Positions 3,157-32,213 of a DNA stretch of 32,542 nucleotides are shown piece after piece; the stretch's first letter is position 1; each line of letters begins with the position of its first letter. The position numbers and the translations under genes are program-made. Origin of the DNA: Roseburia sp. (GTDB taxonomy: Bacteria; Bacillota; Clostridia; Lachnospirales; Lachnospiraceae); NCBI GenBank assembly GCA_017549185.1, contig JAFYVJ010000077.1, forward strand, positions 1 through 32,542. Direction: 5' to 3'. The notes under the pieces are model-generated. The model did no database searches. It saw nothing but the letters and a program-made list of their open reading frames with translations, and was not told the origin of the DNA.

Positions 3157-4188
3157 TTACTTCGACAAACTTGCACCATGGATAAGCTTCATCCATGCTT
3201 CTGCAATACGCCTTGCACCTTTTCCATCTACAATGCTTCGCATTTTTCTTGAACGTTCCTGGCGCAGCTCTTTATCATCTTTATATTCCACTATCATTTT
3301 CGTCACATTCTCGATAACATTATCATATCTAACGTCACCTGCATAATCGATGATATCATCTTCTGCAAACTTTTTCACATTATCGAACTGATTATCTGCA
3401 AGTGAAAATGATATCGTCGGTGTTCCACAGGCACATAGTTCATATAAAGTCGTACCACCTGCTGAAACTGCCAAATCAGCTTCCTGCATATACTTTTCCA
3501 TATCTGTCACAGCCTGATAAATACAAATATTTTCACAATTTTTATACTTGTTCACAAGCTGCTCATATCCTTCATAATATCTTCCACATATTACTGTTAT
3601 ATTTCTAAAAGCTACTGTATCTATTTCTTCTAACACACCTGCTAAGATATGTTTTTCATCGTTCCCCCCAGACATCAAAAGCAGTGTTTCTACTTTCTCT
3701 CGAATGACTTTGTCCTCGATATTCTGGAATTCTTTTCGAAGTGGCATATATTGAGGTCCAAGATATAATTTTACATCCGGGTAATTTGAGGAATATTTAA
3801 ACTTCTCCCAATAGTTCGCATAACAAATAATTGCATCGACATCATAATGAAATGCATTTAAATCATCCAGATATATAATCCTTGTCACCTTAGATAACTT
3901 TTTTAAATATTCTTCCGTTACTTGGTAGCTGTCAATTAAAATGGATGCGATTTCCCGCTCTGCAATTATATTGTTAAGGACTGGCAACTCTGACTCCATG
4001 TCATCCCACTTTGTATGCAAAACCAATGTCTCATGTCCACGTTTTTCAACAAGAGGAACTGCCTGCTCGTCTGCCAAAATGAATATTACTTTTTCTCCTA
4101 ATTCTTTCGCTGCATCTGCAATCGACAAACATCGCATTACATGTCCACTCGCAATTACAGAATTCATGTCTGTTCTAATATATAACAT
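3157..4188 (-). CDS. pseG: UDP-2,4-diacetamido-2,4,6-trideoxy-beta-L-altropyranose hydrolase (PseG-like)
   Basis: A 343-residue GT-B-fold sugar-nucleotide hydrolase, which removes UDP from the UDP-linked pseudaminic acid precursor in the cytoplasm. The N-terminal signature GHVMRC at 15-20 holds the histidine expected to be catalytic. The C-terminal half carries the UDP-binding region, with LLLMSGGND at about 166 and SAGGTTLYELCACGTPTI at about 240, typical of MurG-like folds. The start has AGAGGA 5 nt upstream. It follows pseI by 31 nt and is the last gene of the operon. A legionaminic-type hydrolase (NeuC/LegG) is unlikely because those belong to the epimerase-2 family. The PseI-type synthase next door supports the pseudaminic route. 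Confidence 0.85.
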   Translation of the reverse strand: MLYIRTDMNSVIASGHVMRCLSIADAAKELGEKVIFILADEQAVPLVEKRGHETLVLHTKWDDMESELPVLNNIIAEREIASILIDSYQVTEEYLKKLSKVTRIIYLDDLNAFHYDVDAIICYANYWEKFKYSSNYPDVKLYLGPQYMPLRKEFQNIEDKVIREKVETLLLMSGGNDEKHILAGVLEEIDTVAFRNITVICGRYYEGYEQLVNKYKNCENICIYQAVTDMEKYMQEADLAVSAGGTTLYELCACGTPTISFSLADNQFDNVKKFAEDDIIDYAGDVRYDNVIENVTKMIVEYKDDKELRQERSRKMRSIVDGKGARRIAEAWMKLIHGASLSK

Positions 4189-17214: not shown

Positions 17215-17387
17215 TTTGGGTATAATAAAGCAACTATCTTTCTTTTTACCCATTTTTTTATATAACTTGGGTAAGGATATTTTCTCAAGTCGCTATATGC
17301 CCAAATTATTGCTTAGAGTAGTGATTTTTCATTATATTTTCCACTTTTTTGGGTATTGTCATTTTATTTAATTTGCCTATACCCAAT
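17215..17387. repeat. Left array of three GGGTA-N24-TACCC inverted repeats
   Basis: Three units: 17218-17251, 17269-17302 and 17351-17384. Each has a GGGTA arm, exactly 24 nt of unrelated AT-rich sequence, and a TACCC (once TGCCC) arm; the consensus is close to TTTGGGTA...TACCCAAA. Offsets between units are 51 and 82 nt. The right array at 18558-18730 has the same spacing and nearly the same layout. Function unknown; the constant spacing with variable filler suggests DNA sites for a dimeric or tetrameric protein. Confidence 0.85.
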
Positions 17388-17482
17388 AGACTCTTTTTTA
17401 ATGAACTCAATTCCTATTAATCGCCTTTAAGGATTTATTTATTGACATTTACATGCTTTGTTGAAGCTGATTACCATCACTT

Positions 17483-18262
17483 TCATCCAAAATACTGTTC
17501 AATTATATTTTCTATCACTTCAGAATTTAATGGATTTTCCTGTGTTTCAAAGGTCATAATTAATCGAATGGATGGTAGGATACCATGTGTATTATAGTTC
17601 TCTATCTTTTTAAATGCTTTTTGTGCATATTCTCTATCATCCATTCTTCCAAAGTGCTCCCAATAGTACACTTCCCCTGTTATCGGATGTCGAATAGTAA
17701 AATCCGGATATATTATTATTTTCCCCAATTGCAGTGCACATTCATATCGAAATGGTATCTGTCTCTTATATAATGCCATGTCAATAAGTGCCTCCGACTT
17801 AGAACGCACATAATGTCCTGAACTGGTTTTTATTATTAAATTTTCCGGAAACTTTTTATTTTGTTCATAAGGGGATTTTTGCCACTCTAGAAATTCTTGT
17901 GAATTAGTTTTAAAGTACGGGGAAAGTAATTTTTGATATTCTGATGATTCTACAAGCAATTGTTCTGCCTGATTCAATCCTAATTGAGATTTTCTTAGAT
18001 ATGCTTTGATTGCTTCTTTTTCTTGCAGCAAATCTTCTTTTAATAGAGTTAAATATTTCTTTGCTGCTAGTTGTTCTGCTAATTTTCTATTTTTCTTTGG
18101 AATATAAATATTGTTTTTTCCATTACTATGATACCATTTGTAATACTTACCATTACTAGAACAATTTAGCTTTCCTTCCGGCATACCAGCTATAAGTTTT
18201 TCTATTTCTTCTATCTTTTTCTCTATTTTAGCTTTTCGCTGTAACATCTGGTGGTAGTCCAT
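17483..18262 (-). CDS. Uncharacterised protein with restriction-endonuclease-like core
   Basis: A 259-residue protein I cannot assign to a named family. Residues 5-25 and 55-95 look like coiled coils rich in Lys and Glu. Residues 40-54 (YYKWYHSNGKNNIYI) form a small beta unit. The C-terminal part (150-235) looks like a PD-(D/E)XK nuclease core: Glu157 in RSKSEALI, PDF with Asp187, then YWEHFGRMDD with Glu202, where the usual E-x-K lysine is not obvious. AGGAG lies 6 nt before the ATG. The gene stands alone and is flanked on both sides by matching arrays of inverted repeats (17215-17387 and 18558-18730), which suggests that the arrays and the gene belong together. It could be a DNA-processing or defence enzyme; this is inference. 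Confidence 0.7.
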   Translation of the reverse strand: MDYHQMLQRKAKIEKKIEEIEKLIAGMPEGKLNCSSNGKYYKWYHSNGKNNIYIPKKNRKLAEQLAAKKYLTLLKEDLLQEKEAIKAYLRKSQLGLNQAEQLLVESSEYQKLLSPYFKTNSQEFLEWQKSPYEQNKKFPENLIIKTSSGHYVRSKSEALIDMALYKRQIPFRYECALQLGKIIIYPDFTIRHPITGEVYYWEHFGRMDDREYAQKAFKKIENYNTHGILPSIRLIMTFETQENPLNSEVIENIIEQYFG

Positions 18263-18557
18263 TTATTTCTCCTGTTTTCATATTTTCAATTCGTAAATCC
18301 AGAACAAAGAATATACTTCGTGTGCTCTCGTTCATTTTCTCACGGTTAGTATAATAATTGCCTCTGTCAACTGAATAGTTACCCTATTTCTAACTATCTA
18401 AACATACTTTACACATCTCGTAAAGTAGAAAATAATTATCCTCTTAGGATGATTTTCATTATAATTTTTTAAGTACTAGTAAAACTGCACAAATTTTTGC
18501 ACATTCTATTTTCTGCTGCTTTTTCCAATCACTTTAATTCTTATTACATCTATATAG

Positions 18558-18730
18558 ATTGGGTATTAAATATTTGTTTTTAAATGTAACACCCACAATT
18601 ATTGATATTTTGGGTACTTACTTCGATTTAGCTATTCTAATACCCAAATATAGTAAAAAATCATATCTTTTTCTATATTTTTGTCTTTTTTTGGGCATCT
18701 AAATGATTTATCACACTCTCATATCCAAAT
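18558..18730. repeat. Right array of three GGGTA-N24-TACCC inverted repeats
   Basis: Units at 18561-18594 (second arm CACCC), 18612-18645 and 18693-18726 (arms GGGCA and TATCC). Every filler is exactly 24 nt, and unit offsets are 51 and 81 nt, against 51 and 82 in the left array, in the same orientation. The fillers have diverged almost completely. The array lies 300-465 nt upstream of the nuclease-like gene. The rest of the gap 18263-18902 holds two small hairpins near 18400-18455 and no convincing gene. Confidence 0.83.
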
Positions 18731-31430: not shown

Positions 31431-32213
31431 TTATCCTAATACCACATCCATCACCATCATTGCAGTAAATCCAATCATAAACATAAATGTACCAAGATGT
31501 GAATGTTCTCCTTCAGACATCTCAGGAATCAACTCTTCCACTACTACATAAATCATAGCTCCCGCTGCAAATCCCAGCATATAAGGCAACGCCGGCACTA
31601 CTAATTCTGCTATGAGAATCGTTGCAATTGCAGCAAGCGGTTCCACAATTCCCGATAACATACCACATGTAAATGCACTTGATTTTTTCATACCTTCCCC
31701 ATGCAGTGGAATAGAAATAATCGCACCTTCCGGGAAATTCTGTATCGCAATTCCCAGTGATAATACAAATGCTGCAGCCACTGTCACGTCTGTTTCCTGC
31801 ATCATGGCACCTGCATATAACACCCCAACCGCCATACCTTCCGGAATGTTATGAAGCACCAATGCTAAAATCATCATCGTAGTTTTTTGCAATCTGCTCT
31901 TTGGTCCCTCCACCGATTCACTGTTTATATGTAGATGTGGTACGGCTTTATCCAGTGCAGATAAAAAAATAATGCCCAACCAAAAACCTACCGTTGCTGG
32001 TATAAATGCCCATTTCTCCAAATGAACTGCATTCTCTAATGCAGGAATCAGCAAGCTCCAGATAGATGCCGCAACCATCACACCTGCTGCAAATCCCGTA
32101 AAAATTCTCTGTAATTTTAAATTCAATTTCCCTCTTACAAAGAAAACACAACCTGCTCCTAATGTTGTTCCTACAAACGGAATAAAAATCTCCTGTAACA
32201 TACTAATTGACAT
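31431..32213 (-). CDS. ZIP family divalent metal transporter
   Basis: A 260-residue membrane protein with about eight helices, which imports divalent metals such as Zn, Fe or Mn. The metal-binding signatures of helices 4 and 5 are present: HNIPEGMAVGVLYAG and IQNFPEGAIISIPL. A loop with PHLHINSE precedes helix 4. The helix following is VEPLAAIATILIAELVVPALPY. The closest type is the ZupT/GufA branch. The ribosome binding site AGGAGGA is 6 nt before the ATG. Its promoter carries a palindrome typical of DtxR/MntR metal repressors over the -10 box, so it is probably repressed when Mn or Fe is plentiful. Confidence 0.92.
   Translation of the reverse strand: MSISMLQEIFIPFVGTTLGAGCVFFVRGKLNLKLQRIFTGFAAGVMVAASIWSLLIPALENAVHLEKWAFIPATVGFWLGIIFLSALDKAVPHLHINSESVEGPKSRLQKTTMMILALVLHNIPEGMAVGVLYAGAMMQETDVTVAAAFVLSLGIAIQNFPEGAIISIPLHGEGMKKSSAFTCGMLSGIVEPLAAIATILIAELVVPALPYMLGFAAGAMIYVVVEELIPEMSEGEHSHLGTFMFMIGFTAMMVMDVVLG

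Follow-up and report, generated by a model that had tools for sequence, protein, structure and literature searches.

Inverted half-site arrays adjoin genes of a PD-(D/E)XK-like protein family in Lachnospiraceae and appear to vary with the protein

FokI-type enzymes and engineered ZFN and TALEN dimers, which carry a PD-(D/E)XK domain, use inverted half-sites separated by a spacer that is free in sequence and restricted in length. In the 'REPtron', a RAYT (TnpAREP) transposase is accompanied by cognate short inverted repeats (REP/REPIN) beside its gene and elsewhere, and repeats and protein co-evolve (PMC3116915, PMC8266576). The WHO/HO homing elements of yeast are nuclease genes that occupy one housekeeping locus in many species, are allele-specific, and undergo locus replacement (PMC7282813). 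Here we describe a nuclease-like gene of Roseburia sp. that lies between two arrays of inverted repeats, together with its relatives and their arrays; no description of this layout was found in the literature searched, which covered a minority of subscription-journal papers and bioRxiv preprints.

The window, i.e., the whole stretch of DNA analysed (32,542 nucleotides), carries six inverted units around the gene of a 259-aa protein (Table 1). Three exact GGGTA-N24-TACCC units, beginning at 17218, 17351, and 18612, compare with 0.00 expected in 100 dinucleotide shuffles, and a chance origin of the arrays was rejected on the shuffles, the control regions, and an arm-agnostic scan (the latter two below). 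The initial annotation's description of six inverted repeats in two matching arrays flanking the gene was thereby confirmed, with about zero expected by chance; its view of the arrays as diverged direct copies is plausible for this genome's TTGGGTA arrays, the 51/82 layout being common to them. The two gene neighbours scanned encode a helicase and a mannitol-dehydrogenase-like protein. A promoter scan of the window region gave 9 promoter-like sites vs. 11.5 in shuffles and hence no excess. Elsewhere in the window, two close paralogous genes with near-identical N-termini lie on the minus strand (563-1480 and 2024-2890), the first of them without a Pfam match at E ≤ 1.

Table 1. Features of the window and copies of a dispersed repeat in other sequences. 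Units were counted with 7-bp arms TTGGGTA/TACCCAA and a 24-bp spacer, giving offsets of 51/82 in the left and 51/81 in the right array.
Feature	Position	Strand	Remarks
Left array unit 1, TTGGGTA-N24-TACCCAT	17216..17253	.	0 core mismatches
Left array unit 2, TTGGGTA-N24-TGCCCAA	17267..17304	.	+51; 1 core mismatch
Left array unit 3, TTGGGTA-N24-TACCCAA	17349..17386	.	+82; 0 core mismatches
Right array unit 1, TTGGGTA-N24-CACCCAC	18559..18596	.	1 core mismatch
Right array unit 2, TTGGGTA-N24-TACCCAA	18610..18647	.	+51; 0 core mismatches
Right array unit 3, TTGGGCA-N24-TATCCAA	18691..18728	.	+81; 2 core mismatches
259-aa protein gene	17483..18262	-	N-terminal region ~1-75 and C-terminal PD-(D/E)XK-like domain ~126-259; limits read from alignment
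Codons N37 (18152-18154) to K42 (18137-18139)	18137..18154	-	The two residues covarying with arm sequence
Putative catalytic residues E157 (17792-17794), D187 (17702-17704), E202 (17657-17659)	17657..17794	-	From conservation; catalytic role inferred
AAACTTTCGTTT/AAACGAAAGTTT repeat	L006:5117-5884, L007:4678-5531, L046 ~4368, L233 ~977, L239:1074-1185

In an alignment of 31 homologues, E157, P186, F188, and E202 are invariant, and S154, K155, S156, D187, W201, and H203 nearly so. The resulting motif, RSKSE...PDF...WEH, matches the order E...PD...(D/E)xK of PD-(D/E)XK nucleases with the usual K replaced by H; D187, W201, and H203 have been lost from a divergent gene copy (L042) at which no array was detected. 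The 259-aa protein had no Pfam match at cut-off and no NCBIfam match, and no Pfam family was matched by more than two of the 31 aligned members at E ≤ 0.1 (one member matches DegS at 1.3e-5). The Pfam matches of the family included no HuH (Y1) transposase domain, the family profile matched no PDB sequence up to E 5, and PHROGs gave weak matches only, the best of them to an endonuclease family (E 0.1). The C-terminal half matches the PADLOC models PDC-S68 (E 3e-30), which match 31, 31, and 30 of the 31 members; PDC-S69 matches 22 of the 31, and a model named PD-(D/E)XK is also among the PADLOC matches. Homologues were found in 30 of 62 genomes of the genus and, at E ≤ 0.001, in 141 of 397 Lachnospiraceae genomes, where some matches are weak and possibly to the domain alone; several genomes have several gene copies, and some copies contain stop codons. 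A sample of the phylum gave matches at 1e-20 in 11 of 398 genomes, five of them Lachnospiraceae (own genome included) that match over most of the length and six others that match mainly in the nuclease domain. The gene was rejected as phage or plasmid cargo on the basis of 3 matches in 50,697 phage records (one with 27% identity over 88% of the query), 8 partial matches among 72,556 plasmid records, and 9 distant viral loci. These comparisons place the gene in a multicopy family of small PD-(D/E)XK-like proteins, full-length only in Lachnospiraceae among the genomes searched.

Our set of 111 gene loci was drawn largely from the best-ranked matches and covers part of the known copies; with one duplicate removed, it comprises 110 distinct copies in 86 genomes, two of the genomes being counted from named contigs. 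An array was called when at least three inverted units with a common arm 7-mer and at most one mismatch per arm lay within 800 bp, regular spacing not being required. Such arrays adjoin 60 of the 110 copies, whereas none of 45 control regions (29 helicase loci and 16 distal flanks) had more than two units. These counts uphold the proposed tie between arrays and the nuclease family: the pattern was not random genome-wide and homologues did have arrays, yet 50 of the 110 copies had none detected. The latter comprise 44 of 100 intact and 6 of 10 broken copies, not a significant difference (p 0.34), which gives no support to a loss of arrays in broken genes. Five further Lachnospiraceae copies outside the 110 (L170 and L180-L183) included three with such arrays. 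None of 15 distant relatives (six from other families and nine on viral contigs) had more than two units; 11 of these 15 match only from about residue 87 or later, and four from about residue 42.

The arm word is a property of the individual copy: examples are TTAGGCAT, CGGGGTA, GGGACAT, CATGACC, GTTGACT, TACGGTT, TGTACC, and CCGACTG. The six genomes with more than one array copy that we examined (G067, G022, G298, G277, G365, and G233) had different words in 10 of 10 pairs, the closest within-genome pair being TTGGGTAT and CGGGGTAT in G277. Comparison thus shows that over half of the examined copies adjoin an inverted half-site array with a copy-particular word. As a separate observation in G067, L049 (~2063-2158) and L050 (~3650-3700, both in gene orientation) contain, next to their copies of the gene, a similar hairpin-like motif, AATAATAGAA... 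to ...ATTATCATGAAT.

Of 61 array loci (duplicate counted), 36 have at least two units on the upstream side alone, 14 on the downstream side alone, and 11 on each side of the gene. This placement bears on a purely regulatory explanation, in which array binding by the protein would serve to control its gene, and possibly also genes near gene-less arrays, while its nuclease acts elsewhere, e.g., on phage DNA. The presence of at least two units upstream of the gene in 47 of the 61 loci is in its favour, as are the nearest upstream unit, which begins 61-148 nt before the matched gene start in 27 of these 47, and the matches of the nuclease domain to PDC-S68 and PDC-S69. However, the loci with at least two units only downstream and the gene-less arrays far from the gene (below) count against an operator, and phased arrays of up to 21 units (L122) exceed the need of simple repression; we regard control of the gene as the sole function as somewhat unlikely.

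In the window's own genome, TGGGTA-N24-TACCCA has 7 exact occurrences vs. 0 for the reversed control pattern. With up to three mismatches, single units were at chance level (85 vs. 89 for the control), so that only exact or regularly spaced groups are informative. Gene-less three-unit groups lie at C14:175581 (51/82 layout), C16:30227 (52/82, with a first spacer of 25 nt), and C32:41635 (reverse order, 81/51), and degenerate gene-less arrays at C19:61676-62242 and C71 ~32026-32196, giving five gene-less arrays in addition to the two flanking ones; the first C71 unit and the third C32 unit were identified by eye. One C32 unit has the arms AAGGGTA/TACCCTT, i.e., both sides changed. An arm-agnostic scan of 432 kb of this genome for three-unit inverted arrays found four (two in the window, C14, and C16), the scanned DNA being the window and 20 chosen stretches, with the C32, C19, and C71 arrays outside them. 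The same scan found zero three-unit arrays in shuffled sequence and one, irregularly spaced, in 294 kb of a same-genus genome without the gene. The C14 and C16 arrays sit in a repeat in which 0 of 42 aligned arm positions differ vs. 49 of 503 other positions (one-sided p 0.016, four gap columns excluded).

The C19 array shares a neighbour, which we take to be phosphofructokinase-like, with gene copy L145 (84% identical, 340 aa), whose arm word differs, and the C16 array shares a 104-aa stretch (50% identity) with gene copy L061. C14, C32, and C71 have no neighbour in common with gene copies, and an origin of the gene-less arrays as former gene loci was rejected. Four of the five gene-less arrays (C14, C16, C19, and C71) adjoin another dispersed repeat, whose ends resemble AAACTTTCGTTT/AAACGAAAGTTT and of which several copies lie near contig ends (Table 1); this repeat may have carried them. 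Between the TTGGGTA-type units of C19 there is a second gene-less inverted structure with AGTATCT/AGATACT-like arms (L046:3837-3971, G000:C19), and gene copy L130 of another genome has arms of this word. The exact TTGGGTA-type pattern was absent from all 23 same-genus genomes among the first 40 relatives and gave one match each in two same-order genomes. The earlier suggestion to look for the TTGGGTA word beside homologues in relatives was answered in part: in G067, a same-genus genome outside those 40, it lies beside the genome's own gene copy L049, but most other copies have other words. These words and the 23 relatives led us to reject the array as a property of GGGTA alone.

The geometry of the units was kept across copies. 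Their six-base cores lie about 30 bp apart (median 30.0, sd 2.05; offsets of 26-36 allowed), and in a wider search (offset 8-63, at least four units) the best offset was 25-32 in 37 of 52 loci, and none of 29 controls exceeded two units. The distances from one unit to the next, each counted a single time per locus and class (89 classes, with the duplicate locus), lie mostly at 50-54, 61-64.5, 69-75, 80-83.5, 92-93, and 104-107 bp, with single values of 41, 44, 113, 118, 122, and 123. Their resultant R was 0.68 at 10.4 bp (best period 10.2), against a null mean of 0.09 and maximum of 0.35 in 20,000 jittered draws, and 0.61 (n = 49) when the 50-56 class was left out. Since this period is the pitch of duplex DNA, the units would lie on one helix face. 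Tandem duplication accounts for repeated spacings within a locus, not for quantised values between loci. The selection on arms and spacing claimed in the initial annotation is thus supported by a geometry that persists although the arm words differ.

The same measurements bear on the possibility that the arrays act as RNA, either as hairpins or as a repeat antitoxin RNA as in type III toxin-antitoxin pairs. Upstream repeat arrays do resemble type III systems, and 51 of 60 tested units pair at 5 or more of 7 arm positions, a foldability that follows from the complementarity of the arms. Apart from the helical phasing, which is at odds with RNA, arm mismatches on the gene strand amounted to 70 G-T, 83 A-C, and 114 others (by locus, 23 G-T vs. 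22 A-C, with 15 ties); there is no G-T excess and no strand bias, which makes RNA unlikely. Rfam had no match in the arrays of the window or 20 other loci (two gathering matches in the searched loci, a ribosomal leader and a riboswitch, lay outside arrays), and arrays also occur downstream and without a gene. On these indirect tests we give an RNA role very little weight; helical phasing and mismatch symmetry point instead to protein binding on duplex DNA, as had been proposed.

Arm similarity tracks protein identity (Mantel 0.37, null maximum 0.12, p 0.001; 55 intact proteins of less than 95% identity). The partial correlation with the arms was 0.21 for the N-terminus vs. 0.11 for the nuclease domain, and at a nuclease-domain identity of 0.6-0.8 mean N-terminal identity climbs from 0.43 to 0.53 with arm similarity. 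In a column test with overall identity removed, residues 37 (0.459) and 42 (0.342) exceeded the null maximum of 0.309 (200 permutations); the segment KLNCSSNGKYYKWY of the window protein contains both and, read from its residues and not from a structure, is a putative beta-hairpin. The 22 proteins with N37 K42 have GG in every word. Those with D37 R42 (seven) have TGAC in five cases, its complement GTCA in one, and TGAT in one; those with S37 Q42 (ten) have TAC in nine and GCATCA in one (L165). Two proteins with K37 E42 have CCGACT or its complement, two with G37 R42 have TGTACC, and 12 proteins with ten rarer combinations have less clear words; R37 Q42 pairs with ACCGACT and with CGGGGAA (L158). 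At 16 bp from the unit centre, all 22 N37 cases have G and all 11 S37 cases have C.

On the nuclease-domain tree, several branches of which have support below 0.85, the S/Q group contains D/R proteins with TGAC-type words at more than one position (L033; L035; and L125 with L138, L139, L126, and L036). Single lineages have H, Y, C, or G in place of N37, and their words leave plain GGG (L050 TTAGGCAT, L107 CGAGGCA, L026 TGGTATCT, and L130 AGTATC). The residue-base table partly follows clades, with exceptions (L158 and L165). In a mutual information test (60 permutations, maximum 0.294), N37 at 16 bp (0.329) was above the maximum, as was residue L113 (0.334), which lies outside the N-terminal segment, and K42 at 16 bp (0.27) was not; this test is weaker, so that the residue-base reading rests mainly on the column test, the residue table, and the tree. 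Collectively, these results indicate that the arms covary with the protein, above all with residues 37 and 42, and switch together with these residues on the tree, with clade effects possible in part. Binding sites of an unrelated host protein, placed beside these genes by chance, could explain why gene-less arrays exist, but arms that change from copy to copy within a genome and track the nuclease sequence, above all residues 37 and 42, leave such a coincidence scarcely credible.

Several loci record the history of the gene, and copies that occupy a single locus in different species may be very unlike one another. Beside a gene that, from its sequence, we take to be ribosomal L13-like, the copies L033, L124, L125, L126, L133, L140, and L143 have this neighbour 79-95% identical and nucleases 47-66% identical; the five array-bearing copies of this locus have the words CATGACC, GCAGTCA, TTGACT, TACGGTT, and TACGTAT. 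A second group (L028, L029, L031, L109, L115, L116, L117, L154, L155, and L157) lies downstream of a presumably ComEC-like sequence. The clearest candidate for a bounded replacement of a gene segment between near-identical flanks is the pair L113/L114, with flanks of 90% and 95% DNA identity, proteins of 53%, and borders about 80-300 bp outside the gene; no three-unit array was detected at either. Counter-examples are L036/L037 and L038/L039, with neighbours 97-98% and nucleases 99% and 95% identical; a tandem array (period 73) on the upstream side of the gene distinguishes L038 from L039. These two close relatives also have 33-bp tandem repeats near the gene (L038:2622-2737 and L039:299-426).

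The window locus, between the mannitol-dehydrogenase-like gene and the helicase, is occupied by a copy in G067 as well and lacks the gene in G021. A genome without the segment between the arrays, which the initial annotation had advised looking for, was thus found, but its empty site (169 nt) has no array, and its borders could not be aligned and gave no element ends because the intergenic DNA is too diverged. That the window copy and L050 of G067 are simple orthologues is doubtful, L050 being 80% identical to its own-genome paralogue L049 and 64% to the window copy. No recent near-identical gene pair within one genome was seen among the copies examined (best 80%). The idea of a clean cassette with fixed ends is not supported: at least two units are one-sided in 50 of 61 loci, unit number varies, and the G021 borders are unalignable. 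More broadly, the arrays might be the ends of a small transposable cassette, or REPIN-like mobile gene-less arrays, moved by the nuclease. The multicopy, patchy gene, the gene-less arrays in the same genome, and the 90.5% identity over 549 aligned positions of the repeat around C14 and C16 would suit such movement; set against them are the absence of fixed ends in the loci seen, the one-sidedness of the arrays, the AAACTTTCGTTT-ended repeat as a possible carrier of C14, C16, C19, and C71, and paralogues at most 80% identical among those examined. We judge transposition by the nuclease improbable.

The protein thus very probably reads its own array, as judged from the covariation and geometry described. 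In our proposal, a dimer would bind each unit with one N-terminal domain per arm, and residues 37 and 42 would contact the variable arm bases. With neighbouring units on the same helix face, the protein could assemble along the array. Two C-terminal nuclease domains may meet over the spacer in a layout like that of FokI or TALEN dimers, for which a spacer kept in length and free in sequence would be expected. More tentatively, and with less than even confidence, binding would regulate the gene, and the active protein would break DNA in the arrays or in matching gene-less arrays, whereupon repair would replace or spread the locus in a homing-like selfish cycle. Such a cycle would account for gene-less arrays that share the arms, for bounded replacement, for several differently worded copies per genome, and for patchy presence, and autoregulation would explain the frequent upstream position; since the nuclease domain is common to defence candidates, a role in defence is also possible. 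The main difficulty for cutting is that a nuclease acting on its own flanking sites would harm the host unless restrained, and the array-free G021 site means that an uncut homing target was not seen there. The copies without a detected array, the lack of near-identical within-genome pairs, and the array-less pair L113/L114 also count against the proposal. Taken as a whole, an array-reading protein with self-regulation and break-driven locus replacement is the explanation we favour, with slightly better than even confidence. It is possible, though less likely than not, that these copies form an undescribed class of chromosomal element: a natural dimeric nuclease with an N-terminal two-residue code and its own phased array, present in mutually orthogonal copies per genome, with alleles that replace one another at fixed loci through break-induced repair.

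Confirmation of the pairing would make the family a protein-DNA specificity system complete in itself, diversified by nature in many examples and with a residue-to-base relation that can be seen, in which protein-DNA co-evolution is directly testable; the family might also be a source of small natural site-specific nucleases. Why a host should maintain several such pairs, each with its own word, would then call for an explanation. Among known systems, type III toxin-antitoxin pairs likewise have a repeat array adjoining a nuclease gene, but there an RNA antitoxin meets an endoribonuclease, whereas here the array has duplex DNA phasing and no strand bias. PADLOC PDC-S68 and PDC-S69 share the C-terminal nuclease domain; however, the three PDC-S68 models span 1202-1273 positions, the match leaves out the N-terminal region ~1-75, and arrays were found in 0 of the 15 distant relatives. 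FokI, ZFN, and TALEN dimers differ in that the arrays here are natural, genomically linked, and of many units, in a system known from sequence alone. The WHO/HO elements are the nearest in locus behaviour, with replacement at the locus, but are intein-zinc finger proteins that cut FBA1, with cleavage demonstrated, where the present evidence is confined to sequence; we know of no flanking site arrays in them. Nearest in logic is REPIN/RAYT, also a nuclease gene with cognate inverted repeats beside the gene and elsewhere in the genome. There the repeats are dispersed in high copy, unlike the five gene-less and two flanking arrays of our genome, and RAYT is an HuH enzyme acting on single-stranded hairpins, whereas the present family would combine a PD-(D/E)XK-like protein with phased duplex half-sites and copy-specific arms.
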